Origin: Bacteroidaceae bacterium
GTDB taxonomy: Bacteria; Bacteroidota; Bacteroidia; Bacteroidales; Bacteroidaceae
Assembly: GCA_017541265.1 (NCBI GenBank)
Contig: JAFXZK010000083.1
Coordinates: 1 to 34,911 of the forward strand
Direction of reading: 5' to 3'
DNA length: 34,911 bases
Below the pieces are notes generated by a model. That model made no database searches. It saw only the letters and a list, made by a program, of their open reading frames with translations, and had not been told where the DNA came from. Positions 1,825-34,300 of this stretch are shown here, in pieces. Made by a program: the position numbers and the translations under genes. Position 1 is the stretch's first letter. Each line of letters starts with the position of its first letter.

Positions 1825-2745
1825 TTAATGTTCATATAGATGATATTGTACAATTCTTTCAATGGGGCGGCGCAGGATGCGGCCTATTTGCATGTCTTTT
1901 GCAGCAGCTGCAGCCCTGAGTTCCTCTTCAAATTGATATGCAATGCCTCCCACGCAGTTTATGGGTATTTCCTTGTGCCCATAAATTACAATGTTGTTGG
2001 TGATGAACAGCCGGAAAGCATCAACCAGCATGTCATGAATGGCTGGCTGGGTGCGATGTTCTGCGATGAATGGCACAAGCGAGGCCAGGAAGGTGTTTGG
2101 GGCAGGCTGGCGATAGACACGCCCTATGATGTCTGGCAGAGAAAGATTGTATTTGTCGCAGAACGCCTCTTTGAGGCTTTCGGGCAGAATGCCTTTGAAG
2201 AGACCGTTCAACAATGATTTGCCCAAGAAGGAGCCACTGCCTTCGTCGCCCAAGATATAGCCCAGGGGCGGGGTGTGCTTCACGATGTCCTTGCCGTCAT
2301 AGAGACAGCTGTTGGAGCCTGTGCCAAGGATGCAGGCAATGCCTGGCTCACGTCCACAGAGAGCACGCGCCGCACCGAGCAAGTCGCTCTCCACCTCAAC
2401 GGTGCAGTTCGGGAAGAGTTCCTTTAGAACATTCCGTACGCTTTGACTGAAAGGCTCAATACAGCCCGCACCATAGAAAAAGACAGAAAGCCTCACCCCT
2501 TCCCTCTCCAAGGGAGAGGGAGAAAAGTCACAGCCCTTCACCCCTCTTGTGGGGGAAGTCTGCAGGACGGGAGAGGGCATCTGTGTCAGCAGCTGATGGT
2601 ATAGTACATTATATATAATATCGCGCGTGTCGCGCGCGGGATTGATGCCGTCGGTTTGCAGCCTGACCTGTGTCCCATCGGGAGCAACGAATATCCAGTC
2701 TGTCTTTGTCGAACCGCTGTCAGCTATGAGAAGTGCGTTGTTCAT
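1825..2745 (-). CDS. BadF/BadG/BcrA/BcrD-type ATPase, N-acetylglucosamine kinase-like
   Basis: The protein starts at MNNALLIADSGSTKTDWIF: the DSGSTKTDW phosphate-1 loop marks the ASKHA/BadF superfamily. Later motifs agree: GAARALCGREPGIACILGTG with SNSCLYDG near residues 160-185, and LGYILGDEGSGSFLGK near 195-210. In Bacteroidota, proteins of this kind are usually called N-acetylglucosamine kinases (ATP-dependent phosphorylation of an amino sugar in the cytosol); this fits the amino-sugar hydrolases elsewhere in the window, but the substrate is inferred. I chose the start at 2745; a longer frame to 2865 has no family similarity. Residues about 56-85 are encoded by a GC-rich palindromic element (2491-2578) inserted in frame between conserved parts. 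The start codon lies just after the terminator hairpin that follows secG. Confidence 0.85.
   Translation of the reverse strand: MNNALLIADSGSTKTDWIFVAPDGTQVRLQTDGINPARDTRDIIYNVLYHQLLTQMPSPVLQTSPTRGVKGCDFSPSPLEREGVRLSVFFYGAGCIEPFSQSVRNVLKELFPNCTVEVESDLLGAARALCGREPGIACILGTGSNSCLYDGKDIVKHTPPLGYILGDEGSGSFLGKSLLNGLFKGILPESLKEAFCDKYNLSLPDIIGRVYRQPAPNTFLASLVPFIAEHRTQPAIHDMLVDAFRLFITNNIVIYGHKEIPINCVGGIAYQFEEELRAAAAAKDMQIGRILRRPIERIVQYHLYEH
2491..2578. repeat. GC-rich palindromic element, in frame within the BadF-type gene
   Basis: It consists of two local hairpins (CCCTCTCC/GGGAGAGG-type arms near 2502-2520; ACCCCTCTTGTGGGGG near 2549-2565) and a terminal GGGAGAGGG that mirrors the opening CCCCTTCCC. 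The whole stretch is translated in the host gene as a P/S/R/G-rich insertion. It belongs to the same family as those at 23652, 24604, 31057 and 31732. Confidence 0.75.
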
Positions 2746-2749
2746 AAAC

Positions 2750-2783
2750 AAAAAAGCCTCCCCTCTTTGGGATAGGGGAGGTT
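2750..2783 (-). terminator. Terminator after secG, built from a palindromic element
   Basis: Arms 2757-2764 (CCTCCCCT) and 2774-2781 (AGGGGAGG) pair perfectly, and the minus-strand transcript continues with a T run (2750-2755). The hairpin resembles the GC-rich palindromic elements elsewhere in the window, and its T run ends about five bases before the start codon of the BadF-type gene. Confidence 0.8.
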
Positions 2784-2803
2784 TGAATGTGTTTTTTGCG
2801 AGG

Positions 2804-3151
2804 TTACTCTGCTGGTGCTTCAGCCGGAGCCTCAGTGGCTGCTGGCTGTTCCATGGCGGGCACATTGCTTGGGATGGTGGCTGCCTGCTCTACGGCTTGC
2901 TGCATGATGACAGAGTCGTTGTGGTTTGCACCGGGCAGACATGCTACGCTGATGACGCTGAGGAAAATCATTGCGCCAGCGAGCACCCATGTTGCTTTCT
3001 CAATGAAGTTGGTTGTCTTGGGCGCACCAAGAATCTGGTTGTTGTTGGAGTAGTCGGCAGCCAAACCGCCGCCCTTGGATTCCTGAATCAGTACGATGAG
3101 GCACATGAGGATGGAGGCCAGTACAATCAGGATAACGATAGATGTGTACAT
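2804..3151 (-). CDS. secG: Preprotein translocase subunit SecG
   Basis: A 115-residue protein with two membrane segments (residues about 3-22 and 53-72) separated by the short loop QESKGGGLAADYSNNNQILG, which carries the conserved QESKGGGL signature of SecG. SecG is a small accessory subunit of the SecYEG channel in the inner membrane and assists SecA-driven export. The last 35 residues form an Ala/Pro/Glu-rich tail after the second membrane segment, as is common in Bacteroidota. The gene starts three bases after the TPR-like gene's stop and is the last gene of the rlmN operon, followed by a terminator. Confidence 0.95.
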   Translation of the reverse strand: MYTSIVILIVLASILMCLIVLIQESKGGGLAADYSNNNQILGAPKTTNFIEKATWVLAGAMIFLSVISVACLPGANHNDSVIMQQAVEQAATIPSNVPAMEQPAATEAPAEAPAE

Positions 3152-3154
3152 GTG

Positions 3155-3892
3155 TTATTTGTGTTTATTGTTTATTATTAGTTTCTCAAGAAATCGAATT
3201 TGGTCTGCAAAGTAACGATTTTTTTTTGGATATTTCAAGGAAAGTTGCCGGATAATTTTCACTGCGTTCTCATATTTGCCTTGTTTGATGTAAATTCCGG
3301 CCATAATTTCAGTCAATATCTCATTATCTTCGTCGTTTTGCGGCTTTTTGCTTTCGCCTGTCGGACTCTTTTCCTGTTCGTCCTCGTCGTTTTCTTCAAG
3401 AACTATTTTCCCGTGTTTGTTCTCCAGGAAGTCCTCCACGACACCGCCGCCGTTCATGGGAAGTGCGTCCGGCCTTTGTCCGCCTTGTTGGCTTTCGCGG
3501 TTCAGCAAGTAGCCGATGTAGTCCTGTGCGGCATCAATGGGATGGTTGACAGGTGTGGCGGGAGTCTGTGTTTCGAGGAAGTTGTCGATGAGGCTCACGG
3601 TGCGCGATTCAGAGGAGTCTGCAGTTTCCTCGTATCGCTTGCGTTCTTCTGCATGTGTATAGTGAGGCTCTTCGGTAAGGCGGAAGACGGCATCCCGGCT
3701 TGGCACAAGGATGGCCGTGCGCCGCAGTGTCTCGTCGTAGGCAGGATCATGTTTCTTGTAGAGAGCTTCGAGGAGCAGGATGCGTGCGACATGAAAGTAT
3801 GGGTATTCCTGCGTAAGCGTTTGCAGCTGGCTGATGGCATCGTTGTCGATGGTGTCAGGGCGTCGGATGTAGTCTATAACGTGTCGTTGCAT
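3155..3892 (-). CDS. TPR-like conserved protein of the lptE-secG operon
   Basis: A 245-residue soluble protein without signal peptide. Residues 1-60 (DAISQLQTLTQEYPYFHVARILLLEAL) form helices typical of a Bacteroidota family that sits between lptE and secG. The middle (residues about 85-185) is charged and low in complexity, with runs of Glu, Asp and Lys. The C-terminus (LTEIMAGIYIKQGKYENAVKI... KYPKKNRYFADQIRFLEKLI) is a recognisable tetratricopeptide motif, so a protein-binding role is likely. No catalytic motif is visible. Its place between an LPS-assembly lipoprotein and a translocase subunit hints at envelope biogenesis, but that is only context. It starts 15 bases after the lptE stop. 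Confidence 0.8.
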   Translation of the reverse strand: MQRHVIDYIRRPDTIDNDAISQLQTLTQEYPYFHVARILLLEALYKKHDPAYDETLRRTAILVPSRDAVFRLTEEPHYTHAEERKRYEETADSSESRTVSLIDNFLETQTPATPVNHPIDAAQDYIGYLLNRESQQGGQRPDALPMNGGGVVEDFLENKHGKIVLEENDEDEQEKSPTGESKKPQNDEDNEILTEIMAGIYIKQGKYENAVKIIRQLSLKYPKKNRYFADQIRFLEKLIINNKHK

Positions 3893-3907
3893 TTCGTGTG
3901 TTGAGGT

Positions 3908-4417
3908 TTACCAGTTGGCTACTGTGGCGTTGAAAATCTGGTCGGCGATGTCCTTTACCATCTGTGTGACGAGTTCCTCCTGAACCGCTGTAAGCTGTTG
4001 CGAGGCGTCGTAATCGGCTGTTGCTGAGAATTGCCGTTCGAAGTCATCAGTGTGTTTCTTGTTGTTGACGAAGCGGACGTTGACTGTCATCTTGAGCTGT
4101 ACCTGGCTGCTGTAGCCATCGCTGGAGATGCCTTTGTTGAACTGGTCGAAAGCGATAATCTCGCCTGCGAGTTGCAGGTCGCCGTTCTTCTTAACCTGGC
4201 GAAGTTTTGTCTGGTTAGCGTAAATATCTGTGATTCTGTTCTGGAAGATGCTCTGCATAGGTCCCCAGACGTATGCGCTGCGTAAGGGGAAGTTGTCTAT
4301 CTGGATGGTTTTCGTTGTCTCGTAATCGATGCTGGCACCGTTGAAGCGGTAGCTTACGGTACATGCCGAGACGAGCGCTGCAAGCAGGAGCAACAAGGTG
4401 TGGCATCTTCTATTCAT
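3908..4417 (-). CDS. lptE: LptE family LPS-assembly lipoprotein
   Basis: A 169-residue lipoprotein: after a basic start (MNRRC) comes a leucine-rich signal ending in the lipobox LVSAC, so the mature protein begins at a lipidated cysteine near residue 19. The mature part (YRFNGASIDYETTKTIQIDNFP, then FQNRITDIYANQTKL and QVQLKMTVNVRFVNN) matches the Bacteroidota LptE family. LptE plugs the LptD outer-membrane channel that inserts lipopolysaccharide. I chose the start at 4417, which overlaps the end of the sigma54-activator gene by eight bases; a start at 4426 adds only three residues. A longer frame to 4570 is only read-through in the activator gene. Confidence 0.88.
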   Translation of the reverse strand: MNRRCHTLLLLLAALVSACTVSYRFNGASIDYETTKTIQIDNFPLRSAYVWGPMQSIFQNRITDIYANQTKLRQVKKNGDLQLAGEIIAFDQFNKGISSDGYSSQVQLKMTVNVRFVNNKKHTDDFERQFSATADYDASQQLTAVQEELVTQMVKDIADQIFNATVANW

Positions 4418-5633: not shown

Positions 5634-5639
5634 GGTTAG

Positions 5640-5692
5640 GCTTTTCTGATTATTCAGAGTATTCTGAAAACTCTGATTATTCTGATTGCTCG
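5640..5692. repeat. 9-bp-unit repeat at the pdxA-like/activator junction
   Basis: Five imperfect 9-bp units of the form CTGATTATT (with CAGAGTATT, CTGAAAACT and CTGATTGCT variants) cover the end of the PdxA-like gene and the gap to the activator gene. The stop codon of the upstream gene (5677-5679) is inside the repeat. A related 9-bp array is translated near the end of the GH84 gene. Confidence 0.75.
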
Positions 5693-6459
5693 GTGCCTTT
5701 GGCTGCTTCCTTTTCGTTTCTTCTGTCTTCACGCTTGTCGCGGTAGAGCTTGGGCAGTGGGTTCTGCCGTGCTTCGTCATAGAGAGCGCGGTTGCGGATG
5801 ATGTCTATGGCTGTGTAGATGGGGTGTGTCAGCCAGGAGACGTCAGCCAGGCCTTCCTCCTCCTCTTTCTTTTGGGCGGGCTGGCAGACGGCTGTGACGA
5901 CTGCCTCCCTGCCAGCGAAGTAGCGGACGGGGGCTTCCTCTGAAAGTCCGGCGACGATGCGCTGCGTCAGTTCTCTGCTGCTGGCGACGATGCCGTCGAA
6001 GTGGCATGCCATGTCCTCTGCAAAGAATTGTTCCACGGTGTAGGGGCCGTATGTGTTAATGCCCTGTTCTTTTGTAACTTGGCTTGCGAGGTCTGGGTTC
6101 TGCATGGCTGTTTCGCAGACGATGGCGATGCGTGGATATCGGAGGTCGAAGTCGCGCTCCAGCGTGTCGCAAAGCCTGACGATGTCTTCAACCGTTGGCT
6201 CCTTGGCGAGTGGCATGATATTCGTCTTGTCGGTCACAATAATCTCGAAGGCACCGGCAGGGCATTCCGCCAGTTCCGTCGGGCCGAATGTCAGGGCCTG
6301 CACCTTACCTTCGTCAAGGTCACGGAGGGCAACCTTCTTCTCCAACACGACGGGTGTGCAGAGTTCGAGCAAGGCAGGATCGTCATATACGCTGCGGAGC
6401 AGGTCGTCGCCATTGCCGTTGTTCCCTGTCTTGATGATGGCTATTTTGAGTCTTTCCAT
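5677..6459 (-). CDS. Degenerate PdxA-related protein (lacks catalytic motifs)
   Basis: A 260-residue protein that can be aligned by eye with 4-hydroxythreonine-4-phosphate dehydrogenase (PdxA) at several places: the N-terminus (KIAIIKTGNNGNGDD... DPALLELCTPVVL), the segment RDFDLRYPRIAIV, then YGPYTVEQFFAED and HFDGIVA, and the C-terminal AIDIIRNRALYDEA. PdxA normally has about 330-360 residues. Here roughly 90 residues of the middle are missing, the GLNPHAG motif is replaced (VCETAMQNP) and the AMYHDQG motif after FDAVL is gone, so the metal-binding histidines appear lost. Enzymatic activity is therefore unlikely; a retained structural or regulatory role is possible because the frame is open. 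A start at 6465 is also possible. It sits where Bacteroidales commonly carry pdxA. Confidence 0.7.
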   Translation of the reverse strand: MERLKIAIIKTGNNGNGDDLLRSVYDDPALLELCTPVVLEKKVALRDLDEGKVQALTFGPTELAECPAGAFEIIVTDKTNIMPLAKEPTVEDIVRLCDTLERDFDLRYPRIAIVCETAMQNPDLASQVTKEQGINTYGPYTVEQFFAEDMACHFDGIVASSRELTQRIVAGLSEEAPVRYFAGREAVVTAVCQPAQKKEEEEGLADVSWLTHPIYTAIDIIRNRALYDEARQNPLPKLYRDKREDRRNEKEAAKGTEQSE

Positions 6460-13070: not shown

Positions 13071-13075
13071 AATAA

Positions 13076-14785: not shown

Positions 14786-14802
14786 AGACGCAACCCTTTG
14801 TT

Positions 14803-14918
14803 CTGGCGGATTTGCAATCCGCCAGCATTGGGTATAAGCATTTGCAATGCGATAAAAGCAATAAATGTCGGGATTATAAATCCCTATACTCAATGCGGTC
14901 GGATTGCAAATCCGACCG
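14803..14918. repeat. Hairpin cluster with conserved ATT-TGC-AAT core
   Basis: Four hairpins in a row: arms CTGGCGGATT/AATCCGCCAG with loop TGC (14803-14825), GCATT/AATGC with loop TGC (14838-14850), GGGATT/AATCCC with loop ATA (14870-14884) and CGGTCGGATT/AATCCGACCG with loop GCA (14896-14918). The first two recur nearly unchanged at 34856-34903. It fills the gap between GH109 and the cyclo-ligase gene and may also slow or end transcription. Confidence 0.9.
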
Positions 14919-14927
14919 AACATAGAA

Positions 14928-21347: not shown

Positions 21348-22346
21348 TTAGCTGAATGCTTCGACCTCTGCGGAGTAGTGTCCGTAGATGTACTCCACGA
21401 CCATGCGGCCGTAGCGACCTTGTTCGCTGACGAGGCATGAAACGAGACCCATCGTCCAGCGCCAGTTGACTTCGATGCAGGGGCAGATGCCCTCCTCGGC
21501 CAACATCATGTCGATGCCGACGGGGCCGCTGTAGTCGAAGCGGCGCAGACGCTCTTCCCACCAGCGACGAATCTCCTGAAGGTATTGCAAGGGGATATAT
21601 TGTGCCAGCCATGCGAGCTTCTGCCCTTCCGGTGCCACCCAGTTGCCTAAGTAAGCACCTCGTTCGTTGGTGTAGAAGAGGGAAAGCCCTTTGTACTCGA
21701 CACCGCCCTTGCCGTCAAGCCAGAACTCCAGGGCGAAATCGGCAATCTTGTGCAAGAACTTCTCCACGACAATGCTACCCTGCTGACGAAGGATGCGGCG
21801 AACCCAACTTGAGTCCTCTCCCTTTAAGGGAGAGTTAGAGAGGGTCTTCAGCCCTCTTCCGCTGCTACTCCAAGGCGATTTCAACAGGACATTTCTTATT
21901 CTCTTATTTTCTTCATTCCTCATTTTCCCGACCGCTTCCTCGACCTCCTCCATGCTTTGGCAAAGCGTGGATTCGCCCACAATGTGTCCGTCGAGAGGAA
22001 GTTGTTCGCGAAGCTCCTGCAAGAGAGAGACGGCTGTTCGTCGATGCGAGAGTTGTCTGATGTGCTCTATCCTTTCGGCAGAAGGCAGAAGCGACGCCTG
22101 AACGCCTGCCTGCTTCAGTTGATGGCAAAGCGCAGGACTCCAGCCCCAGGGCAAGATGCGCGTGTCGTCGGCAAGGCACAAACGGTCTTCGCCATTCCAG
22201 ACGATGTCGTCCTCCTTTGCCCACCATTGCGGCAGCCACCACAGTTCGCGCCGCATCTGCTGAATCTGTGCAGGAGGCGTATAGCCGGGGTGCCCGTCGG
22301 CAAGCGCCATATCGTTCTCAGGATTGAAGACAAATAAATAGTTCAT
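21348..22346 (-). CDS. Uncharacterised ATP-grasp-like protein
   Basis: A 332-residue soluble protein (MNYLFVFNPENDMALADG at the start). Residues about 155-310 have ATP-grasp features: NVLLKSPWSSSGRGL (phosphate-binding loop), IVVEKFLHKIADFALEFWL, and the metal-binding region GIDMMLAEEGICPCIEVNWRWTMG. ATP-grasp enzymes join a carboxylate to an amine or thiol through an acyl phosphate. The substrate is unknown; the N-terminal 150 residues are a family-specific domain. It is the last gene after the GH84 and fusion genes, so an envelope or peptidoglycan-related ligation is a guess. The start codon is contributed by a CATAGTY heptanucleotide array, and residues about 166-179 (LKTLSNSPLKGEDS) come from a palindromic element in the ATP-binding loop region. 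Confidence 0.75.
   Translation of the reverse strand: MNYLFVFNPENDMALADGHPGYTPPAQIQQMRRELWWLPQWWAKEDDIVWNGEDRLCLADDTRILPWGWSPALCHQLKQAGVQASLLPSAERIEHIRQLSHRRTAVSLLQELREQLPLDGHIVGESTLCQSMEEVEEAVGKMRNEENKRIRNVLLKSPWSSSGRGLKTLSNSPLKGEDSSWVRRILRQQGSIVVEKFLHKIADFALEFWLDGKGGVEYKGLSLFYTNERGAYLGNWVAPEGQKLAWLAQYIPLQYLQEIRRWWEERLRRFDYSGPVGIDMMLAEEGICPCIEVNWRWTMGLVSCLVSEQGRYGRMVVEYIYGHYSAEVEAFS
21811..21850. repeat. Palindromic element in the ATP-grasp gene
   Basis: CTCTCCCTTTAAGGGAGAG forms a hairpin and is followed by TTAGAGAGGGTC. It is read in frame in the host gene, directly after the SSSGRGL loop. Confidence 0.75.
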
Positions 22347-22450
22347 AGTCCATAGTTATGAGTTCATAGTTATGAGTTCATAGTCCATATGTTGGCTGAG
22401 TTTGCAGGGCGTAGCCTTAACTATGGACTATGAACTATGGACTATGAACT
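22344..22450. repeat. Opposed heptanucleotide arrays between fusion and ATP-grasp genes
   Basis: Units CATAGTC, CATAGTT, ATGAGTT, CATAGTT, ATGAGTT, CATAGTC (22344-22385) face four RACTATG units and a partial fifth (22419-22450), separated by a spacer that itself starts with GGCT and ends with AGCC. The arrays supply the start codon of the ATP-grasp gene (22344-22346) and the stop codon of the fusion gene (22442-22444). Confidence 0.9.
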
Positions 22451-25400
22451 AATCTTGGCTCCTGTGTAGTAGTGTTTCAGTATCTCTTTGTAGCTGTAGC
22501 CTTGCTCGCCCATGACGGCGGCACCGATTTGGCAGAGGCCTACGCCGTGGCCCCAGCCGCGCCCGTGAAGGATGAAGCGACCCGGGATGCCGTCGCTGAC
22601 ATTCCTTGTCTCGACGGTGAAGGCGCTGCTCTTCAGAGTTGATGTGCTGAGCATACGGCGAACCTCAAGCTCCTTGCCGATGACGAATTCCCTTTCCTTG
22701 CCGATAATGCGCAGTTTGCTGATGTGTCCGCCTGGTCCCTTCTCGACAATCTCCATGCCCAGGATTGGTCCGAGTTCCATCTTCAGGTGCTTGCAGATGC
22801 GGTCGTGTATCTCTTCTTGCGACAGCTCTTCCGTCCAATCGTAGAAGTCGCGTGTCTCGAGGTCGTAGTCGTTGAGCACTTGGCGAAGAATCTTTTTGTT
22901 GTTTGTGTTGCAGAAAGGATCTTTGACAGAGCGCAGGTAAGGCACCTTGATGTTCTCCCAGCAGTACTGGAATTCGTTTGTCTGTCCGCCGCAGCACTTG
23001 CCGAAGCGTGTGTCGCATATCTTCCCGTCGTACATCAGCACCTGTCCCCGGGTGGCGTTCACAGCTTCTGCAACCTGCGGATTGCTGGCGCGGGTGATGC
23101 CCTGATAGCGCTGGCAGTGGTCGTCAGCACAGACGTCGAAGATGGTGTGGTCTTCCCTGTCGTACCAGCGGATGCTTTCGCCCTCGCCTTTGACGAAGGA
23201 GAAGAAGGGGGCAGGCTGGCCGGCTCGCTCTTGTCTTCTCTGCATCTGGGCATAGAGCCAGCTGCGGCTGATGACGGCAGAGGCTTTCAGGAACTCCAGG
23301 GAGCAACTGCTCTTCATCTCGCTGCTGATGACGCTCGTCAGGTAATCCTCGACAGGCAGGATGTTGATGGCGACTATCTTGTCTTCATCAACGACGAGCT
23401 TGAGGATGCCTTGGAAAGTCTGTGACTCCTGTCGTTCCCAGTGGAACTTTTGGCCGATGGTGACATTATGAAGCGTAAATGCCCCCTCCCCACGGAATGT
23501 CAACTCCTGATATACATTGCCTCCCCAGCGGATGCCGCCCTCGGTGTATTCTGCCGTTTGCTCACCTATGACCTCGTTGCCTTTCGCTTGATAGGGCGTG
23601 TTCATGCAGAAACGAATGACCGTGTCCTTCATAATGCCGACAGAGACGGAAGACCCTTCCAAACCTCCCCGAGGAGAGGCTTCCGTTCTCTCCCCTTCGG
23701 GGGAGTTGGAGGGGGGCTGGAGATCTGTGAGGCTTTCTATTACTGGCTTCAGCTCCTCTTCGCTCAAGGTTACTTCCTGCAAGATACTTACTGCCTTCTC
23801 TGCCGTCAACGTCTTGAAGTCCTCTTCTCTTGGCGTGATGAAGAGGCCGCACATGTCAAGTGCGCCGGGGCTTATCAGCAACTGCTCCTTGCCCTCGGCA
23901 TAGTAGCAGTCGGGACGGTGCTTGCTGCGAGGGAAGATGAGTGTGACGATTTCGTCGGGATGGCTCGAAGTGCCCTCCTGTCGCCAGCAGACGATATTGA
24001 GGCGCGGCTCCGTCTCGTCGCCCACAATTGGCAGGGCCTTATAGACCCGCTGGCAGAGGAGGCTGTCGCTCTCGGCTGGCAGGCTTCTTATCACAAAGAC
24101 GGGACAGGCATAGCCCTCCAAGAGGTAAAGCCCCATGCGGCTGCCCACGTTGCCCGCCTCTTCCATCGATGCCACCTGTTCGCCCGTCAAAGGATAGAGC
24201 TTCCGCAACCCCTTTTCGTACATTGTCCAGTCTCGTTCCAGTGGCACGATGCCTCTACTTCCTGCTTGAAGGTGCATGTGGTCGGGACACGACGCGCCGC
24301 ACAGTGGGCCGTTGTAGAAAACGATATGCTTGGGCATATCCCACGCCATGCGGCGGAGCGTGGCGAATGAGCTGTAGATGCTCTGCGGAGTGTGTCTTCG
24401 CATTGGGATGGTGAAGTGCTGAGGCAGGATGGGGTAGGGGTTGACGAGAATCTGATAATGCTTCTCCGTCATCAGCTTGTGCTGCTCCTTCGGTCTGTTC
24501 TGGTCGCAAAGGAAGCATGGGCGTTGGCTGATGCTTTTCTTGTCGATAGCGGCACCAGTAGAGACGATGCGGGCAGGGTTCCATTGGACGAGGAGAGACA
24601 AACCAGACCCTCTCCCGACCTCTCCCTTGTAGGGAGAGGAATTGATAGTATAGCCACAGAAAAAGTAACCACTCCCCTCCCTACAAGGGAGGGGTCGGGA
24701 GAGGGTCTGCTCCAACGCCTTGTATCTTTCGGCGGCTTCGGGCCATTCCTGCAATTCCTTTTGGAAGAAAGCCTCAATTTCCTTTGCCGTCACCTTGTGC
24801 TGCCAAAGCTGGTTGAGTTGCTGACGCGCCTTGATTTCGAGGGTGCGCAGATGGTCTTTGTAGGTGTTGTTCTTGTTAATCTTGTCTTGGCTTAATGCTG
24901 CGTCGCTGTTGCCTTCCCAGCGACGGCACAGGTACACCTCATCGTAGATGCGACCGATGCGATACCTGCGGCTTATCATCAGGCCGAGCGCATAGTCCTC
25001 CCCATAACTGGTGTTCGGTATCTGAAGCTCTCGGAGGACAGGCGTGAAGAAGGCACGAGGCGCACCAAGGCCATTGATGCGGAGCGCATTGTTGCGTCCG
25101 TTCTGCAACGTCCATTCGCGGTGGTCGATGAGGCCTGGCGGCAGGGTGTTCAGTTGGAAGTCGCACATCCTGTACGAGCCAATTACCATCGCTGCGCCCT
25201 CGGCATAGAAGGTATCCACCATGCGCTGCAAGGTATGAGGCGAGGAGTAGAGGTCGTCGCTGTCAAGTTGCACTACGAAACGTCCCACCTGCGGATGATG
25301 TACCGCCAAGTTCCAGCAGCCGCCGATGCCGAGGTCGTCGCGGTCGGGGATGAGGTGGATGAGCGAAGCCCCCTCCCCGCTCCCCCTTTGGGGGAGTGCT

Positions 25401-26242
25401 TTGTTTATCTTCTCCGTCGTTCCGTCTGTGGAATGGTTGTCGATGACGATGACGTTGAAGGGGAAGGTTGTCTCCTGCTCGAGAGCCGAACGGATAGCAT
25501 CTTCTATGGTGCGCTCACGGTTGCGGACGGGAATGATGACCGAAGCCTCGACTGCGAACTCACCTTCCGAGAGGTTCACCTCGTCGTACTCGTCGCCGTG
25601 CAGATAGGCGTTCAAGGCGCGAAGATGCCGCGTGCAAGCCCGCTCCATCTCGACTTGCCTGCTGCGGTTGCGCGGGTCAACATAGTCGAACTGCTTCTGC
25701 CCGCTCAGCCTCGTATCATGCTCAACTTCAGTATAAAGGAACTCATCGACGTGCAGGGGCAACTGCTTCCGGCTGATAAAGAGGCGCAGGTCATAGAGTG
25801 CCGCGAACTGATAGTTGTGAAGGTTCTCCTGCGCGACGTACTCCTTCAGCACCTCCGTGCGGAACAGAAGCACACTGCCCATCTGGAAGTCATCGCGAAC
25901 GGAGCCGAGTTGGTAGTCAATGAGGGGAGCGGGGAGGGGGCTGATGGGGAGTGTGCGTTTGTAGTGGTCGCTGTATATCATCAGCGCCCCGCTGTCCTCG
26001 GCAATCGTGAGGAGTCGTGTCAAGGCGTGATAGCCGAGCTGCAGGGTGTCATACTTCGTATATAATAATGTATAGGGAGCTGTCGCTGTCTCTGCGATGA
26101 AGCGTATCGTCTTGGTGTTGCCTGGACCGTCTTCGCGCAGGAAGTTCACCTCTTTCACGTTCTCGTCAGCCAGCAGGCCGTCCAGCGTCCCTTTGACTTG
26201 CTCGTCGCTCTGCCAGGGGATAAAGCAGTCGATATGTTTCAT
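22442..26242 (-). CDS. Fusion: GT-A glycosyltransferase x2 + DUF4922 (HIT/GalT-type) + SpoIID/LytB
   Basis: One open frame of 1266 residues without signal peptide. Residues 1-215 look like a degenerate GT-A fold ([19 protein letters not shown]... MIYSDHYK). Residues about 232-470 are a clear GT2 domain: [28 protein letters not shown], metal-binding LDSDDLY near 328 and GEDYALG. Residues about 480-840 are a DUF4922 domain related to GDP-galactose/Ap4A phosphorylases: [10 protein letters not shown] near 576 and the HxHxQ motif in [10 protein letters not shown] near 652. Residues about 880-1266 are SpoIID/LytB, with the catalytic glutamate in [13 protein letters not shown] near 975, CGGQTNEF and [15 protein letters not shown] near 1226. 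SpoIID normally cuts peptidoglycan outside the membrane, so its presence on a cytosolic chain is odd. Three palindromic elements are translated inside it. It follows GH84 by 12 bases. Confidence 0.85.
23652..23722. repeat. Palindromic element in the fusion gene (DUF4922-SpoIID linker)
   Basis: Opening CCAAACCTCCCC and closing GGAGTTGGAGGGGGG pair imperfectly around two local hairpins (CTCCCCGAGGAG and CTCCCCTTCGGGGGAG). It encodes residues about 841-864 in the linker. Confidence 0.75.
24604..24709. repeat. 106-bp palindromic element in the fusion gene
   Basis: Outer arms 24604-24620 (CAGACCCTCTCCCGACC) and 24693-24709 are perfect over 17 bp. Inside are two hairpins: TCTCCCT/AGGGAGA (24621-24637) and a 9-bp CCCCTCCCT/AGGGAGGGG stem near 24674-24694. 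It encodes residues about 512-547 in frame, at the start of the DUF4922 domain. Same family as 31057-31169. Confidence 0.9.
25365..25402. repeat. Half palindromic element in the GT2 domain
   Basis: CCCCCTCCCCGCTCCCCCTT and the following GGGGGAGTGC form one hairpin. It encodes [12 protein letters not shown] between two conserved GT2 strands; the same peptide (ALPQRGSRKGA) occurs in the GH84 protein. Confidence 0.8.
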
Positions 26243-26254: not shown

Positions 26255-29200
26255 TTATTTGATAACTACTTTCTTGCCGTTATGGATGTAGATACCCTTT
26301 GGTAATTTACTATTTACTATTTTATGGCCGATAAGGTCGTACCAGGCTTTTGAATAATCGGAATAGTCAGAGTATTCTGAATAGTCAGAGTCTTTGGAGC
26401 ACTCCCCGATGCCTGTGACGATGACGGTTCCTTCATCTGTCTCTTCGGTAATCTCGTAGATGAGCGGCGGCTTTGATGTCCAGCTTATCTTTGCGGCAAC
26501 GGCGAGGGGATAGGAGGTGAGGTCGAAGCGAGAGACATAACCTGTCAGAGGACCAAGTTCAGTCCATTGACCATTATCTGTCGTGACATAGACCTTTGCG
26601 TTGGACTGCTTGCTTCCGTCCTGATAGATGGTGAGCGACTTTGTGTAGTGCTGCGAACGGAAATTCCAAAGAACAGCTCCCTTCCGGCTCCCTCTTTGGG
26701 GGAGTGCTGTTGCGCCGTCGGCATCGGCGAGTTCCTTAATGGTCCTACCGTCGGCATCGGTGGCAAGGCCTTGGTGGGCTTCCTCGAAGAGGCGGCCGTT
26801 CACTTCAATTTCGTAGATACGGAGCCAGTTCGTCGTCTTTGGCGTGGCGAGGTAGAGGCGGACGTATCGTGCCGACTTGCCTCCGCCGTCGAAGTCGCAG
26901 TAGGTCATCACGTCGTTATAGACCACGTTGTGCTCATCCTCGAGCGTATAGTTTGTGTTTGTTGTGCCGCTGATGGGGATGCTTTCCCAGGTCTTCCCGT
27001 CCTCGGAGAGTTGCACGAGGCCGGCTGTCATGTAGTCGCCGTTCTCTGTTCCCATGCAGATGCGCACGTCGTTGACAGGCAAAGACTTACGGAGCCTCAC
27101 GGTATAGGCATCTCCATCCTCTTGGTTGCGCCTGATGCAAGTCCAGGTGTCGTAGTCGCCATCAATCATGTACTTCTCCGTGTGCCCGTCGTAGAAGCCG
27201 GCGCTGCATTGCGGTGTGGTGGCTGACACAGGCTTCAGCTTGACGGGGAGCGTGAGGCTGAACTCTGTCTTGGAAATTGTCAGCACACGCGCCTCGGCAG
27301 AGGGATTGAGCAGGATGACATATTTAACATGCTCAGTGGGAAGGGGGGCGCCCTGCTGCATCGTCATCCATTGTTTGCCATTAGAAGACCAAAGCACTTC
27401 GTAGTTCTCCCAAAGCGTGTCCGCCACGGCAATGTCCTCAAGCTGTGTCGCTTCGGGAAGGGATATGCCGACGTAGTCGCCCTGGTTCATCACAACGGGC
27501 TGGGACAGTTTGATATAGGCAGAGCCGGTGGTGCTGGAATACGAGGCAGAGCCGTTTATGTCCTCGCGGTTGCTCACAATGCTGGGACCTGTGGCATTGA
27601 GGTTTGTGAAGTAATCCTTGCCGAGCGCATTCTCGGAGAACCATTCCACGAAGGGCATCATTGCTTCCTGTGCAGGCTCTGCGTAGCGGGTGGAGAGGCG
27701 GATGCTACTGCCCATGCCGGTAAGGATGTCAAAGGCAAAGCGCGAGTCAGTGCCAAGCCCGCCCACATAGTTCATCTCCTCGACGAAGGCTTCCCACTTG
27801 TCGTCGTCGTTTGGCGTGACGACGAGGGATGAAAGCTTGGCAATCTCCTGAGCCATCGCCTCGAGCTTCAGGAGCCAGGGCTTGATGTCCTTGTAAAAGA
27901 GGCTTTGGCTCTCGTCTTCCGATGCTTCAAGGGTGTGCAGCTCTTGGCAGGCGACGAGGATATTCTGAACCTCTGTCACCATCGCCTCTGTCGGAGGGTT
28001 GCCCTTGCCCAGTGCTGTCTTGAAGCGCGCGGCAAGCGTGTTGAAGGCCGATGCGTCGAAGTAGCACAGGTAGGGCGCAAGGAGGCGAAGAGCATCGGCA
28101 TGTTCCTTCCCCACCACGGCTGGGAGTGCGGCTTCCCAAGCGCTCATGTTGTCGAAAGCGGCATTGTTCCAAGTGTAGTCGCCCACGCCGAACAGCGCAA
28201 TCTTCGACACTTCGCCCTGCTGCATGGGATTGATGATGATGGTCATTGCGTCCTGAAGGTTGGCTTCGAGGCGTGCGTCACTGCTGATGCGCGGATGCAC
28301 GTTGAAGTTGGAGTAGGTGTCGAGCGGGAAGAGCTTCGTCACGTCCTGGTCATTGCAGGGATAGTTCCACCACCAGGCCACTTTGCGCCCGAGGTAGTTC
28401 TTGCCCTTCTGCAGGTCGCTCGTGTTGGGCACCGACCACGTCCTCGTTCCGGTGATGTAGATGTCCACCTTCGCCGGCGTAGAGCGCAGGGCATTGTAGA
28501 ACTTCTGGCGGTTCTCCTCGGTGGATTGGTTGAAGTTATAGACCTGCGGCACGACATTCAGGGGCTTCACCGTGTCTTCTGGGGCGGCTCCCTCCTTGTT
28601 CCACTTCTGGTCGATGAGGTTCTGCACTTCCGTTATCCGGTTGGCATTGAGCTGCAGGATGGCGTCGTCGGTCGGTATGCCCACATCATCGACGCAAATG
28701 CCGAATTGGCGCACGCCGAGGCGGTACATGTTCTGGAACTTCGTCATGATTTTCGAGACGACGGTGGTGTTGCTGGCATTGGTGAAGTTCGACCCCGGAT
28801 GGATGGCCCAGATGAAGTTGACCTTGCACTGGTGCGCCACCTTCGTGATGTCGCGGAGCATGCTCTGGGACAGGTAGCCCAGTTTCCGCTGCTCCGCTGT
28901 GATGCTTGTCGGATAGGCTTGGTCCCATTTCTGCGAATGGTAGGGGTCGCTCTTGGCACCGTACATATACATGTTCAGCTTGTAGCGTGCCATGAAGCGG
29001 AAGAGGTCTTTCGTCACCTCAGCGCTGTAGGGCACACCGTAGTAGCCCTCGATGATGCCTCGGTTCTTCACGTCGGCGTAGTCCTGTATCTCGCCGCAGA
29101 CGATAGTACCTCCGCCCTCCGTCAGGGGGAGTTCCGTGTCGAGGATTTGCTCAAGGGAAGCTAGGCCGTAGAACGTGGCGTCCGTGTTCTCGCCAACGAT

Positions 29201-29587
29201 GAGGATGTCTGCTTCGCCACCGTCCTGCCTCCCGATGGAAATGTTGTGACGGTCGTACTTCTTCGGCGTCGTGAGGCTGCTCTGCACGCCAAGTCGGAGC
29301 ACCGCCTGCCCCTCTGCCGGTACATCGGCGAAGACTGCCGTCCTGCCGTGCTCCTCAAGCACCTCAACCGCACGGTCTCGCGTATATTGGTCAATGCCGT
29401 CCTCGGCGATGATGCTCACCGTCTCGGTGACAATGGCGGTTTGGTCAGTCAGGGAAGTTAGGTGGGGAATGGGGTGAATGCCGTAAGGATTGGTTCCTGA
29501 ACCGGTCGAAGAATTTTGTGCTCCGAGGGGACTAAAATGAAAAAGTATAAGTGTAAAGCAAAAAATGAATATGGCAAGTCTTCTCAT
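26255..29587 (-). CDS. GH84 beta-N-acetylglucosaminidase (secreted, multi-domain)
   Basis: A 1110-residue secreted enzyme; the signal peptide is MRRLAIFIFCFTLILFHF with cleavage near GAQ. Residues about 40-165 are the GH84 N-terminal domain. The catalytic barrel begins at GIIEGYYGVPYS near residue 176 and has the Asp-Asp pair in FGICVDDVG near 298. Members remove beta-linked GlcNAc (O-GlcNAcase or hyaluronidase-like, NagJ type). After a helical region, residues about 820-950 form an F5/8C-type sugar-binding domain (MIDGDYDTWTCIRR... ARYVRLYLA... LRIYEIEVNG). The last 30 residues (AWYDLIGHKIVNSKLPKGIY) are a short sorting-type C-terminus. Two repeats are translated: ALPQRGSRKGA from a palindromic element, and DYSEYSDYSDYS from a 9-bp array. 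The promoter is at 29627-29660. Confidence 0.92.
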   Translation of the reverse strand: MRRLAIFIFCFTLILFHFSPLGAQNSSTGSGTNPYGIHPIPHLTSLTDQTAIVTETVSIIAEDGIDQYTRDRAVEVLEEHGRTAVFADVPAEGQAVLRLGVQSSLTTPKKYDRHNISIGRQDGGEADILIVGENTDATFYGLASLEQILDTELPLTEGGGTIVCGEIQDYADVKNRGIIEGYYGVPYSAEVTKDLFRFMARYKLNMYMYGAKSDPYHSQKWDQAYPTSITAEQRKLGYLSQSMLRDITKVAHQCKVNFIWAIHPGSNFTNASNTTVVSKIMTKFQNMYRLGVRQFGICVDDVGIPTDDAILQLNANRITEVQNLIDQKWNKEGAAPEDTVKPLNVVPQVYNFNQSTEENRQKFYNALRSTPAKVDIYITGTRTWSVPNTSDLQKGKNYLGRKVAWWWNYPCNDQDVTKLFPLDTYSNFNVHPRISSDARLEANLQDAMTIIINPMQQGEVSKIALFGVGDYTWNNAAFDNMSAWEAALPAVVGKEHADALRLLAPYLCYFDASAFNTLAARFKTALGKGNPPTEAMVTEVQNILVACQELHTLEASEDESQSLFYKDIKPWLLKLEAMAQEIAKLSSLVVTPNDDDKWEAFVEEMNYVGGLGTDSRFAFDILTGMGSSIRLSTRYAEPAQEAMMPFVEWFSENALGKDYFTNLNATGPSIVSNREDINGSASYSSTTGSAYIKLSQPVVMNQGDYVGISLPEATQLEDIAVADTLWENYEVLWSSNGKQWMTMQQGAPLPTEHVKYVILLNPSAEARVLTISKTEFSLTLPVKLKPVSATTPQCSAGFYDGHTEKYMIDGDYDTWTCIRRNQEDGDAYTVRLRKSLPVNDVRICMGTENGDYMTAGLVQLSEDGKTWESIPISGTTNTNYTLEDEHNVVYNDVMTYCDFDGGGKSARYVRLYLATPKTTNWLRIYEIEVNGRLFEEAHQGLATDADGRTIKELADADGATALPQRGSRKGAVLWNFRSQHYTKSLTIYQDGSKQSNAKVYVTTDNGQWTELGPLTGYVSRFDLTSYPLAVAAKISWTSKPPLIYEITEETDEGTVIVTGIGECSKDSDYSEYSDYSDYSKAWYDLIGHKIVNSKLPKGIYIHNGKKVVIK
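26305..26325. repeat. Heptanucleotide array (ATTTACT) in the GH84 C-terminus
   Basis: Units ATTTACT, ATTTACT, ATTTTAT in frame encode the HKIVNSK segment of the C-terminal sorting-type region. Confidence 0.65.
26345..26395. repeat. 9-bp array encoding a DYS tripeptide repeat in GH84
   Basis: Units GAATAATCG, GAATAGTCA, GAGTATTCT, GAATAGTCA, GAGTCTTTG are read in frame as SDY/SEY triplets just before the C-terminal sorting-type segment. The units resemble those at 5640-5692. Confidence 0.8.
26674..26711. repeat. Half palindromic element in GH84
   Basis: GCTCCCTTCCGGCTCCCTCT followed by TTGGGGGAGTGC. It is translated in frame as ALPQRGSRKGAV, nearly the same peptide as in the GT2 domain of the neighbouring fusion gene. 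Confidence 0.8.
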
Positions 29588-29660: not shown

Positions 29661-29727
29661 CAGGTTACAATTTTTTTGCTTTTGACAGAGGTGAAGTGCC
29701 TCAGTCCTCCTAATCAAATTTTACGCA

Positions 29728-29830: not shown

Positions 29831-29849
29831 GAGCCTGTATCCGTGCTGT

Positions 29850-31340
29850 TTATGTCCAGCCTTCGAGGTCAGCTTCGGGGAAGAGGCTGGGATTGAATGT
29901 CGGCTCCTTGCCCTTGCTGCGCTGCTCCTTGAAGTCCTTCAGGAGGCGGAAGGCGTAACGGCTCAAGAGCAGGACGGCGATGAGGTTCGTGATGGTCATC
30001 AGTGCCATTGCGAGATCCACGATGCCCCAGGCCTGCTGCAAGGTCATAAAGCCGCCCAGCAGCACCATCACGCCGCTCAACAGGCGGAACAGCGTCACCG
30101 CCCAGGGCTTGCCCGTAATGTAGCGGATGTTCGTCTCGCCATAGAAATAGTTGGCAATGATGGTCGAGTAGGCAAACAGGAAGATGGCAGCCAACAGGAA
30201 CCAGCCGCCGAAGCTGCCAAGGTGGTGCTCCATCGCGTGACCCGTGAGGATGATGCCGTCGTCGCCGCAGTCGTAGAGTCCGCTCAACAGGATGATGAAG
30301 GCGGTGCAGGTGCATATGACGAGGGTGTCGGTGAAGACGCCGAGGCTCTGCAGGAGGCCTTGATAGACGGGATGCGGAATGGTGGCAGTGGCAGCGGCAT
30401 TCGGGGCACTGCCCTCACCGGCTTCGTTCGAGAAGAGACCGCGCTTCACGCCCTGCATGATGGCGATGCCGACAGCGCCGCCAGCTGCCTGCTCCCATCC
30501 GAAAGCACTCTTCACGATGAGGCTCAGCATGGCCGGTATCTGTGTGAAGTTCACGGCAAGGATGTAGAGTGCCAACAGGATGTAGCCGATAGCCATGAAA
30601 GGCACGACCATCGCGCAGAAGCGGGCAATGCGCTGAATGCCGCCGAAGATGATGAGCAAGGTCATCAGAGCCAGTCCGCCTGCCACATACTTCATAGGAA
30701 CATGGAAAGTGTTGCTGAGCGCGTCGCAAAGGGTGTTGCTCTGCACAAGCTGGTTGGCAAGGCCGAAGCCATATATAATAAGGAAGGCAAAGAGGATGCC
30801 CATCCAAGGTTGCTTCAGGCCGTACTTCATGTAGTAGGCGGGACCTCCGTAGAAGCTGTCCTTGCCGTGCCGCTTGAAGAGCTGGGCAAGTGTCGCCTCC
30901 ATGAAAGCCGTACTTGCTCCCAGCAAAGCCATCACCCACATCCAGAACACAGCACCCGGTCCGCCTACGAAGATGGCACTCGCCACACCAGCCAGGTTGC
31001 CCGTGCCCACTCTTGAAGAAAGGCTGATGGCAAAGGCTTGGAAGGAGGAAATAGACAGACCCTCTCCCCACCTCTCCCTTGTAGGGAGAGGAGTGGTTAC
31101 ATCATCCCCCTCAACACGTTTGTCAGTATCTGCTCCTCTCCCTACAAGGGAGAGGCGGGGAGAGGGTCTTAGATTCTTGAGCATCGTCGGCAACATCGTG
31201 AACTGCACGCCACGAAGGTTCCAAGTGAAATAAAGCGCACAACCCACCAGCATCGTGATAACGATGTAGGTCCACAACGCATCGCTTATCGCAGCGATGA
31301 TGTCAAACTTTATAAACTCGAGGTTCAAGAAGTATTCCAT
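29850..31340 (-). CDS. AGCS family amino-acid:cation symporter
   Basis: A 496-residue inner-membrane transporter with about ten hydrophobic segments. The family motifs are clear: SSRVGTGNLAGVASAIFVGG near residues 107-126 and GLFSNEAGEGSAPNAAATA near 310. AGCS proteins import alanine, glycine or similar amino acids with sodium or protons. Residues about 58-95 are encoded by a 113-bp GC-rich palindromic element (31057-31169) placed in the cytoplasmic loop between the first membrane segment and the conserved SISSFQAFAISL segment; without it the length is normal. It starts 36 bases after the PEP-synthase-like gene, separated by a heptanucleotide array, so the two are probably co-transcribed. Confidence 0.93.
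   Translation of the reverse strand: MEYFLNLEFIKFDIIAAISDALWTYIVITMLVGCALYFTWNLRGVQFTMLPTMLKNLRPSPRLSLVGRGADTDKRVEGDDVTTPLPTRERWGEGLSISSFQAFAISLSSRVGTGNLAGVASAIFVGGPGAVFWMWVMALLGASTAFMEATLAQLFKRHGKDSFYGGPAYYMKYGLKQPWMGILFAFLIIYGFGLANQLVQSNTLCDALSNTFHVPMKYVAGGLALMTLLIIFGGIQRIARFCAMVVPFMAIGYILLALYILAVNFTQIPAMLSLIVKSAFGWEQAAGGAVGIAIMQGVKRGLFSNEAGEGSAPNAAATATIPHPVYQGLLQSLGVFTDTLVICTCTAFIILLSGLYDCGDDGIILTGHAMEHHLGSFGGWFLLAAIFLFAYSTIIANYFYGETNIRYITGKPWAVTLFRLLSGVMVLLGGFMTLQQAWGIVDLAMALMTITNLIAVLLLSRYAFRLLKDFKEQRSKGKEPTFNPSLFPEADLEGWT
31057..31169. repeat. 113-bp palindromic element in the symporter gene
   Basis: Outer arms AGACCCTCTCCCC (31057-31069) and GGGGAGAGGGTCT (31157-31169) are perfect. 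Two inner hairpins, CTCTCCCTTGTAGGGAGAG and CTCTCCCTACAAGGGAGAG, are mirror copies of each other. Same architecture and nearly the same sequence as 24604-24709. Confidence 0.9.
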
Positions 31341-31346
31341 GTCAAT

Positions 31347-31381
31347 AACAATGAACTATGCACTATGAACTATGAACTAAG
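31347..31381. repeat. Heptanucleotide array (AACTATG x5)
   Basis: Units AACAATG, AACTATG, CACTATG, AACTATG, AACTAAG. The stop codon of the PEP-synthase-like gene (31377-31379) lies in the last unit. Confidence 0.88.
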
Positions 31382-34300
31382 AGCTCATCACCACCGCTTC
31401 TTTCTTGCAGCCGTCGACCTTGATGGTGAGAGGCTGGGGCAAGCGGACGTGGCGGACGTGTTCTGTCTCTTGGACGGCGGGCAGCGCGTCGAGGACTTCC
31501 TGCCGGTAGATGCCGTCGCCTCGGTAGGCGTTGATGGTCAGGTAGCAGACACCAAGCGACGTGAGGTTCTGGAAGAAGTGAGTTCCTTGGCTGGGGTCAA
31601 CCTGGAAGCTGTCAAGCCCTGCCTCCACGATGACTTGTGCCGCGCTGATGTGCGACCACTTGACAGGAATGCCGAGCCAGGGGTCGCTGCTTCCCCAACG
31701 ACCAGGTCCGATGAGGAGGTAGGAAGGAGCACCAGCCCCCTCCTGCTCCCCCTTTGGGGGAGTGTCCAATCTGCAATCCTCTTTGCTTCCTAAGCACTCC
31801 CCCAAAGGGGGAGCGGGGAGGGGGCTGGCTGGGGCTGTGGGCTGGTTTAGGAACCCCCTGTTTATCTTCTCTATCTCTTCGGCGATGGCGGGATTGTTCC
31901 CCGGCGTGTAGCCGTCGGTCTTGACGTAGACGATGTCCTGAATGTCGGTATAGATGCCGTGGCCGATGGCTGAATGTGAGCGCAAGAGGCAGTCCTCGTC
32001 GGGAATCGCGGTGAGGTCTTCGTCAAGCTCCATGCGGTTGTCCACCATCGGACGAATCTGCAGGAGGCAGAACTCGCCGGTGCGGTCGGCGTGCAGGTTG
32101 ACGGCAAACTCAATCTCGACGGGTCGCTTCATCTCGTCCTGACCGTACTTCAATACTTTGCGCATCAGCTCTGCCAAGGGGAAGACGTCGCTCTGCAGGA
32201 CACCCGCGAAGGAGATTATCTTGCGGTTGCGCCCCTCGTAGTAGCCGTCATAGATGCACTGGTCAAAGGGGTCGTAGGTCGAGCAAATCCATTGGAGCGT
32301 GCCGTCGCCTTCTGCCTCGCGGACAGGTACTTTGATGAGGTTGAAGCCGTCGTTGACGCTCATTTCACCTGCCTCCTTGGAACTCAAGGCACGAAGGGCG
32401 AGGAAGTGTGTCTGGGTGTCGCGCAGGGCAATCTCCATCTCGCTCATCTGCAAGACCTGATGCGGATGTGCGGGACAGACGCGGAGACTCGTGCCGCCGT
32501 CCACAATGTACTTGCCGAGACCCATTGCCAGCGAGACAGTTCCCTCTTCGGCTTTCTCGTCGCCGATGGGGTAGTAGTTGATGCTGCGTGCCACGCCGCT
32601 GATGACGGGATAGAACCTGCCGTTGTGCTCCTCGCCCACCACCTCTTGCAGGATGACGGCCATCTTCTCCTGGTCGATGACGTTGCTTGTCGCCGTCATG
32701 TAGTCCTTGCTGCTCCGATAGAACACACTCGCATATACGGCTTTGATGGCTTCCGAGAGCATCGAGAGACGCTCGTAGCGGTCGTGCGCCGCAGGTATCA
32801 TGTAGGTGCTATAGACGCCGGCGAAAGGTTGGTAGTGCGAGTCTTCGAGGAGGCTTGAGGAACGTATCGCGATAGGACCATCGACGACATCGAGGAAGGC
32901 TTCCATGTCGCCGACCAACCTCATGGGCAATCTTGCACGAAGGAAGTGCTGCAGTATTTCTTCGTCGGGGATGTCGCTGAGAGCCAGTTGGTAGAGGTCG
33001 TTGGTGTCCATGAACTCGTCGAAGATGTCAGTGCAGAGCACGACGGTCTTCGGGATGCAGACCGTCACGCCCTCCTTCTCGTTGAGGTCGGTGTGCCGTC
33101 CAAGCAGATGGTCGATGAATGCGAGGCCGCGTCCCTTGCCGCCCAGACTGCCTTCGCCGATGCGGGCGAAGTTGCTGTACTGGTCGAAACGCTCCCTCTG
33201 GAAGACTGCCACGACGCCCTGGTTCTTCATCCTTCGGTAGGCGACGATGGCGTCAAGGATAATCGCGCGGTGTGCGTCCACGTCCTGCAAGCTCTCCCAA
33301 GTGATACCCTTCAGGAACTCGGAGATGGGGAAGAGCGCACGGCTGGCAAGCCATCGGCTCACGTTGTTGTGGGAGATATGGTAGAGCAGGCTTCGCGTGG
33401 GCAGCGTCATGATGTTGTTCTGCAAGTCCTTCAGGTTGTGCAGGCGTGCCACTTCCTCCATCGTGTCGGGGTCGCGGAAGATGAAGTCGCCGAAGCCGAA
33501 ATAGTCGCGCAGGTGGTCGCGCAGGTCAACGTCAATCTTCTTGGAGTTCTTGTCGATGAAGCTTGCGTGGCATTCCTTTGCCAGCCGCTCATTCTCTGTC
33601 TCGCTCGAATCGAGGATGAGGGGCACATACGGGTCGCGGGCACGGATGGCGCTGAGCAGCTTGAAGCCCGCATCCGCCACCTTCTCGCCTCCATGCGTCA
33701 TGGGGAAGCGGCAGTCGCTGATGACACCCAGCGTGTTGTCGGCAAAGCGGTTGTAGAGCAGCCACGCCTCTTCGTAGTTGCGCGCCAGCACAATCTTCGG
33801 CCGTCCGCGCATTCGCAGCATCTCGAGGCTTGTATTGAGGGCTTCGGTGGCAAAAGCGAGGCTCTGTTCCAGCACGAACTTGTAGAGTGCAGGCAGGATG
33901 CTCGAGTAGAACCTGATGCCGTCCTCCACGACCAGCAGCATCTGCACACCTGCCGATTTGATGTCGTGCTCCAGGTTCATGCGGTCCTCCATCAACTTGA
34001 TGATGGAGAGCAGCAGCTCCGTGTTGCCTAACCAGCAGAAGACGTACTCGAAGGCGCTCAAGTCCTCGTTCTGCATACGTTTTGTGATGCCGTGGCTGAA
34101 GGGCGTCAGCACCACGATGGGCGTCATCGGGTAGTGGTGCTTGATTTCGCGGGCAATGTCGAAAACCGAGTTGTCCTCGGCAGCAGGCATCACGATAACG
34201 AGGTTCACCTGCCCTCCCGCCATTGTCTGCTCGGCCTCCTCGCGGCTGTGTACCTGCAGGAAGCGTGGCGGGAAGCGAAGTCCCAGCTTGGCGTATTCCG

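Follow-up and report, generated by a model that had tools for sequence, protein, structure and literature searches.

The 34,911-nucleotide stretch described here (the window) is the entire contig C3 of a draft genome from a Bacteroidaceae bacterium (3,240,122 bases in 143 contigs, estimated to be 87.37% complete; the own genome, G000, below) and carries eight GC-rich palindromic inserts across six reading frames, every one of which is left open. The inserts are probably short, non-autonomous derivatives of a larger element in which a nuclease gene of the DUF559 family (PF04480) is ended by two inverted GC-rich palindromes, a reading drawn from the presence in the same genome of nuclease genes with the same palindromic ends. 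Somewhat more cautiously, they may be taken to represent a new class of bacterial mobile element, found here in many Bacteroidota and comprised of a palindrome-ended, homing-type DUF559 gene that enters host proteins in frame without splicing, with short deleted copies that are moved in trans by the matching nuclease and build flexible linkers in many proteins. A preliminary description of the window, made from the sequence alone, had listed eight in-frame inserts, three of them in one fusion gene, and all eight places exist and keep the frame; the single related family that it envisaged resolves instead into families A and B, a CCCTTTAAGGG type, and others.

Families A and B account for five of the eight inserts and both recur genome-wide, with the remaining three belonging to the CCCTTTAAGGG type (in the ATP-grasp-like gene), a CCCCTTCGGGG type (at the third site of the fusion gene), and a further type (in the gene named as a BadF kinase). 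Family A has a CCCTTGTAGGG core and the layout GACCCTCTCCC-nn-CCTCTCCCTTGTAGGGAGAGG, followed by a variable middle and then the inverse, and carries GTAG in its loop, while family B has a CCCCTTTGGGG core and is laid out as AGCCCCCTCCCCGCTCCCCCTTTGGGGGAGTGCT, a variable middle, and then the inverse. Allowing up to three mismatches, the first core pattern gave nine matches at five places in the window, a number reached by 0 of 100 shuffles. Across the own genome the same pattern gave 88 strand matches (42 + 46, compared with 1 + 0 for the reversed-pattern control), equivalent to 63 places by hand count because near-palindromic copies score on both strands, and CTCCCCCTTTGGGGGAG gave at least 149 (77 + 72, control 0 + 0). 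Same-family neighbors 20–150 bp apart in the own-genome stretches that were read stood in +− order, i.e. as inverted pairs, in 65 of 65 cases, and the symporter element folds as a single long hairpin (DNA folding, z −10.8). The window has no match in Rfam at gathering scores.

Some inverted pairs are several hundred bases apart, and on contigs C89 (A ends) and C102 (B ends) these enclose a small open reading frame (ORF) that Pfam assigns to the PF04480 (DUF559) nuclease family. Two further PF04480 matches complete the set of four in the own genome, one on C16 with CCCTTAAAGGG ends and one on C56 nested in an epimerase gene. Of 61 genomes searched for the family, 31 have a PF04480 match. Profile matches of the nuclease in the PDB include 3hrl (1.8e-28) and 3r3p, annotated as "Mobile intron protein" (5.3e-9), which we take to be I-Bth0305I. 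The features by which a homing endonuclease may be recognized, a homologous fold and conserved catalytic-type residues, are both present, with D, E-x-D-G, and H conserved without exception across the 13 aligned nucleases and a motif of such form in 123 of 127 loci. The homing endonuclease model of PADLOC matched weakly (E 1.4e-5 to 3.2e-4), as did other models.

The ends of the nuclease genes were scored as the best inverted repeat between both flanks, with shifted windows of the same size at the same locus as controls and a threshold of ≥13 set from the first controls (maximum 12 among 128). Strong inverted ends were found at 92 of 127 distinct DUF559 loci, as compared with 1 of 381 control windows, and the threshold applied to 79 further loci returned 51 of 79 compared with 1 of 237 controls. 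By origin, 24 of the 92 come from 30 loci of relatives (the top-scoring one in each genome), 17 from 19 additional copies in the same genomes, and 51 from 78 loci on named contigs (the best 80 of 549, with titles from Bacteroidota where a known group is named); the sample is therefore one of best matches, mostly from draft genomes. Five of the 132 loci fetched were excluded, namely L261 (the gene of L250), L259 (missed at a stricter cut-off), L249 and L324 (near an end), and one duplicate. As association by itself gives no causal direction, the DUF559 genes could in principle be mere hosts or targets, with repeats inserting beside small genes or the nuclease destroying or containing palindromes without moving them, and a Caulobacter DUF559 protein is described as Vsr-like (PMC12907096; this and the other papers cited are drawn on in part). 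Inverted ends at most loci and at nearly none of the controls make such an arrangement distinctly unlikely, as do the type-for-type matching and the presence of the entire unit, in frame, inside enzymes, both set out below.

Paralogous nucleases within one genome bear different palindromes, and close relatives across genomes mostly bear the same one. For pairs from different genomes, the fraction sharing a core was 0.875 of 8 pairs at an identity of ≥0.85, 0.696 of 46 at 0.70–0.85, 0.149 of 87 at 0.60–0.70, and ∼0.015 of 3638 at 0.40–0.60. The B core is carried by six named loci with a nuclease 72–81% identical to that of C102, and is retained among eight B-type nucleases in which the proportion of synonymous differences (pS) is ≥0.6 in 24 of 28 pairs. 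The B-type proteins are constrained, with a ratio of nonsynonymous to synonymous change (dN/dS) of 0.06–0.3 where computable, and the ratio is low in all six nuclease groups tested. CTCCCCCCGTGGGGGGGAG, borne by nucleases of G015 and G016, gave 74 and 14 strand matches in those genomes and no more than 2 in any other of the 61, and CCCCTCCAAAGGAGGGG, borne by nucleases of G020 and G013, gave 31 and 11 matches there.

The inverted, hairpin-forming doublet is also the architecture of REPINs, doublets of repetitive extragenic palindromic (REP) sequences, which likewise lack a target duplication. There is consequently a small chance that the elements are REPIN-like, with a Y1 (HUH) transposase of the REP-associated tyrosine transposase (RAYT) type moving them and the DUF559 genes as passengers between palindromes. 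The own genome has four PF01797 (Y1) genes, but none was found with the same flanking palindromes: full-armed A or B elements flank 0 of the 4 within the 8–12 kb read around each, A and/or B matches without any PF01797 match at E ≤ 0.001 occur in G005, G015, G016, G018, and G020, and the palindromes follow DUF559 type. The IS200-like Y1 gene on C49 has A- and B-like cores in the short GC palindromes that flank it, and one family A pair and one family B pair lie ∼1.6–2.2 kb away. A different palindrome family, CTGGCGGATTACAAATCCGCCAG, borders the Y1 gene on C42, and a RAYT-like pair may therefore exist in the own genome.

The surroundings of these two Y1 genes have further palindromes. A different family, CTGGCGGATTTGCAATCCGCCAG, is found in the window at 14796–14925 and 34848–34907, and close variants of it lie on both sides of the C42 Y1-transposase-like gene (L061 1035–1865), with which it likely forms a separate RAYT/REP pair. 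The many short palindromes around the IS200-like gene (L059 1387–2026) are GCCCCAAAGGGGC, GCCCTTGCAGGGC, and GCCCCTTCGGGGC, with cores that resemble families A and B.

At 29 of the 127 loci the nuclease is embedded in frame, with 60 or more residues to either side. In leucyl-tRNA synthetase (LeuRS; L232 and L248) it sits between the catalytic and editing domains as defined by Pfam, and by Pfam it also lies in an epimerase (C56 of the own genome and L255). Host Pfam domains are likewise found on both sides of it in MetH, RecG, GH31, UDP-GlcNAc 2-epimerase, MazG, DegT, and class I synthetases that we regard as IleRS and ValRS; in GcpE, phosphoglycerate mutase, and guanylate kinase it is fused to the ends. 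Junction sequences indicate an apparently shared insertion site for several loci (MetH, GcpE, RecG, and epimerase). The own genome and G024 have an in-frame nuclease at the epimerase site, and 10 same-genus relatives match both host parts with no nuclease at that site. Pfam returned no intein family in 20 nuclease-bearing ORFs, with no search aimed at intein motifs made.

The own genome was read over 350,382 bases in 90 stretches, the window among them, which contain 135 core clusters, of which 70 are paired and 43 single; another 21 are bare core matches (including chance ones), and 1 is left over. One of the "pairs" (C49, 18320) is the short-palindrome cluster beside the IS200-like gene. An element was counted as lying in an ORF when the frame was open through it and ran for 40 or more codons to either side and 150 or more in all, and 57 of the 70 pairs qualified; intergenic and broken cases are pooled in the other 13, some of which are at contig ends. 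The same test (1000 trials each) was passed by 72% of uninterrupted random places and by 41% of the same elements when inserted at random, with a binomial p of 5e-12 for 57 of 70 against the 0.41 expected. Since antisense ORFs occur in such DNA, 30 of the 57 were drawn at random (two of these elements share one ORF) and checked against Pfam: a domain spans the element, or domains flank it in one frame, in 18, while the Pfam evidence is confined to one side in 7 and absent in 5. The hosts among them include TsaD, an EF-type GTPase, QueA, a DEAD helicase, GH20, GH35, GH92, and transketolase. In-ORF pairs encode 17–52 residues and single palindromes 9–12, and element length modulo 3 does not cleanly separate in-ORF copies from others.

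The open frames suggest that the inserts are translated within their host proteins, and together with the genome-wide copies they bear out the preliminary description's view of dispersed elements lying in frame in linkers. Bypass elements are known from mitochondria, and the inserts might similarly be bypassed, or spliced like inteins, and not translated as such; their presence in enzymes usually considered essential, among them TsaD and the EF-type GTPase, speaks for this, but it is very improbable given that 57 of 70 pairs are in frame and stop-free, which bypassing would not need.

Occupancy varies among same-genus relatives. The preliminary description took the inserts for additions and not ancestral protein sequence, and at the sites that could be aligned (one orthologue at the GH84 site and zero at the BadF site) most orthologues are insert-free, with the PPDK-type insert shared with one relative, G027. 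The symporter insert is absent from 5 of 5 aligned orthologues and the GH84 insert from G008. The insert at fusion site 2 is absent in G027, G036, G005, G035, and G024, with a family-B-like pair in the linker of G020 and a small GC palindrome in that of G013. The PPDK_N insert is absent in G036, G005, and G035; other palindromes occupy this linker in G020 (of the CCCCTCCAAAGGAGGGG family) and G013, and G024 has a linker of its own. At fusion site 1, G027 has a different palindrome pair and five relatives (G036, G005, G035, G013, and G024) are palindrome-free, while the site 3 linker is variable among the aligned relatives. A full family A pair lies near the ATP-grasp-like site in G027 and G005, where the own genome has a single small palindrome. 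The same linkers have thus been occupied repeatedly by different families.

The fusion site 1 linker of a further genome, G014 (L168), is filled by a different repeat-like peptide, EELRMKREELRINS, and other repeat types besides palindromes may use this linker.

At the sites with aligned orthologues, host codons are often replaced by the insert, not merely interrupted, and by eye the own genome is without ∼10–15 host codons present in relatives at the symporter, fusion site 2, and epimerase sites. Target duplications of the kind anticipated in the preliminary description, which would mark miniature inverted-repeat transposable elements (MITEs) of DDE transposons, were not found: words of 2–6 bases showed no clear excess over shuffled flanks in 22 A and 36 B elements, and palindromic extension into the element flanks was not beyond chance. 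The loss of some host codons where element and host meet, along with the missing target duplications, is more in keeping with break repair than with classical transposition. The idea that the spacer between paired palindromes is host sequence was dropped, as by eye the symporter spacer faintly resembles the lost linker and the fusion site 2 spacer does not. The flanks of B elements are purine-rich on the left and pyrimidine-rich on the right (0.68 and 0.66 at 2–10 bases) and are not mutually complementary.

The DUF559 nuclease, with its profile like that of a mobile-intron protein, probably cuts DNA; the break would then be repaired by copying element DNA, and short palindrome pairs would be mobilized in trans. 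As the palindromes are open in most frames and encode P/S/G/R-rich peptides, we propose that in-frame linker copies would be nearly harmless and hence tolerated and able to persist, with copies that land elsewhere presumably purged by selection. That the in-frame inserts share their ends with homing-type nuclease genes points to a little-known form of selfish DNA persisting by translation in protein linkers.

Several observations weigh against a nuclease-borne origin of the inserts. No strong inverted ends were found at 35 of 127 loci, including 15 of the 29 deeply nested ones, and two of the excluded loci scored low (L249, 8; L259, 7). Over all distances palindrome and nuclease similarity are weakly correlated (Mantel r 0.132, with 94 of 2000 permutations as high), and the co-variation signal resides in close pairs. 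Taken as a prediction of the nuclease link, CCCCTCCAAAGGAGGGG was a partial success, as it also matches 16 times in G027 and 10 times in the own genome, where no such nuclease was found. No PF04480 match was obtained in G027, which has 38 B and 20 A strand matches, or in G018, which has 24 A. Several genomes are rich in family A, but an A-ended nuclease was seen only in the own genome and G016. Such copies without a cognate nuclease may reflect loss or the incomplete state of the drafts. One nuclease of G020 carries an internal stop, and in G029 the epimerase frame is broken, with the nuclease and C-terminal part joined and the N-terminal part in another frame with a stop. Finally, the nuclease could be a passenger, and mobility, cleavage, and expression are inferences from sequence.

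REP-type palindromes and in-frame Rickettsia palindromic elements (RPEs) have long been known, and to our knowledge tyrosine (Y1) transposases are so far the only enzymes linked to REPs. Matching palindromes at the genes of a second, unrelated enzyme family would point to a testable source for such repeats. If correct, this reading would also give a role to DUF559, a "protein of unknown function" in Pfam, account for the repeated P/S/G/R-rich linkers in host proteins, and provide a case of selfish DNA surviving translation without splicing.

Intragenic in-frame palindromic repeats (RPEs and GTAG/CGTC REPs) are reported in other bacteria (PMC3733652), and the phenomenon is therefore not new in itself. 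As there, the repeats are small palindromes, often dimers, in many unrelated genes, some in frame, and the host proteins are presumed functional. By analogy, the window elements appear to resemble RPEs in effect: the likeness drawn in the preliminary description stands for in-frame palindromes in many unrelated genes, but that reading lacked the nuclease genes with the same ends. The REPs of PMC3733652 are mostly intergenic, whereas most pairs read here are in ORFs, and unlike GTAG/CGTC REPs the ends have no terminal GTAG or CGTC (neither word nor its complement stands within 8 bases of an end in any of the 70 pairs) and are shared with a nuclease gene. REPIN/RAYT systems (PMC3116915) similarly combine many copies of inverted palindrome doublets with an enzyme gene bearing matching palindromes, but their doublets are described as extragenic and the enzyme here is a DUF559 nuclease, not a tyrosine transposase.

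The EDxHD homing endonucleases such as I-Bth0305I (PMC3943268) are linked to the present nuclease by the 3r3p profile match and by nuclease genes that, in several species, seem to occupy one shared position within a given gene. They differ in that no intron or intein is apparent here, the nuclease being in frame with its host and accompanied by palindromic ends and dispersed short derivatives. The GC clusters of yeast mitochondria (PMC4478555) are mobile, palindromic, and GC-rich, with intron endonucleases proposed to aid their movement, but are mostly intergenic and mitochondrial, with putative target duplications at the flanks. BrickBuilt of Porphyromonas gingivalis (PMC4596501) is likewise a repeated non-autonomous element in Bacteroidota; this MITE is, however, intergenic, contains a minisatellite, and has terminal repeats like those of ISPg elements. 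The word "endonuclease" occurs neither in the accessible part of that paper nor in that of another on P. gingivalis assembly repeats (PMC5771137), and "palindromic" does not occur in the accessible part of PMC12907096 on DUF559. Among the open-access papers searched, no title on DUF559 or related terms names palindromes or mobile elements, and none was found on in-frame or nuclease-linked palindromes in Bacteroidota, with subscription journals outside the search.

The inserts and their hosts are collected in Table 1. The host names of the preliminary description agree with Pfam for the fusion protein, GH84, symporter, and PEP-synthase-like (PPDK_N) protein, and found no Pfam counterpart for the BadF kinase and ATP-grasp protein.

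Table 1. Palindromic inserts of the window and the genes that contain them
Feature	Position	Strand	Context or evidence
Further-type palindromic insert, hairpin 2501–2521	2491..2580		gene named BadF kinase in the preliminary description
Single CTCTCCCTTTAAGGGAGAG palindrome	21808..21850		ATP-grasp-like gene (label of the preliminary description)
Small palindromic insert, CTCCCCTTCGGGGGAG core	23688..23726		fusion gene, site 3
Family A element	24605..24709		GT2-DUF4922-SpoIID fusion gene, site 2
Family B palindrome, single	25365..25403		fusion gene, site 1
Degenerate family B palindrome, single	26673..26710		GH84 gene
Family A element, paired palindromes	31057..31170		Na:alanine symporter gene; encodes a 39-residue peptide
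Family B element, paired palindromes	31733..31827		PPDK_N gene; encodes a 33-residue peptide
Host: BadF-type kinase (preliminary description)	1825..2865	-	Pfam: none at E ≤ 0.001
Host: ATP-grasp-like (preliminary description)	21348..22346	-	Pfam: none at E ≤ 0.001
Host: GT2-DUF4922-SpoIID fusion, three inserts	22442..26242	-	Pfam
Host: GH84 (NAGidase)	26255..29587	-	PF07555, E 1.3e-82
Host: sodium:alanine symporter family	29850..31340	-	PF01235, E 2.1e-151
Host: PPDK_N-containing protein	31377..34427	-	PF01326, E 1.6e-39

Two other kinds of repeat are present in the window. Tandem AGTTCATAGTCCATAG-type repeats are located at 1530–1607, 22326–22454, and 31340–31389 and are mostly intergenic, and nine-base repeats (TCTGATTATTCAGAG...) are found at 5636–5699 and 26349–26394, the latter within the GH84 frame, where they encode SDYSEYSDYSDYS.

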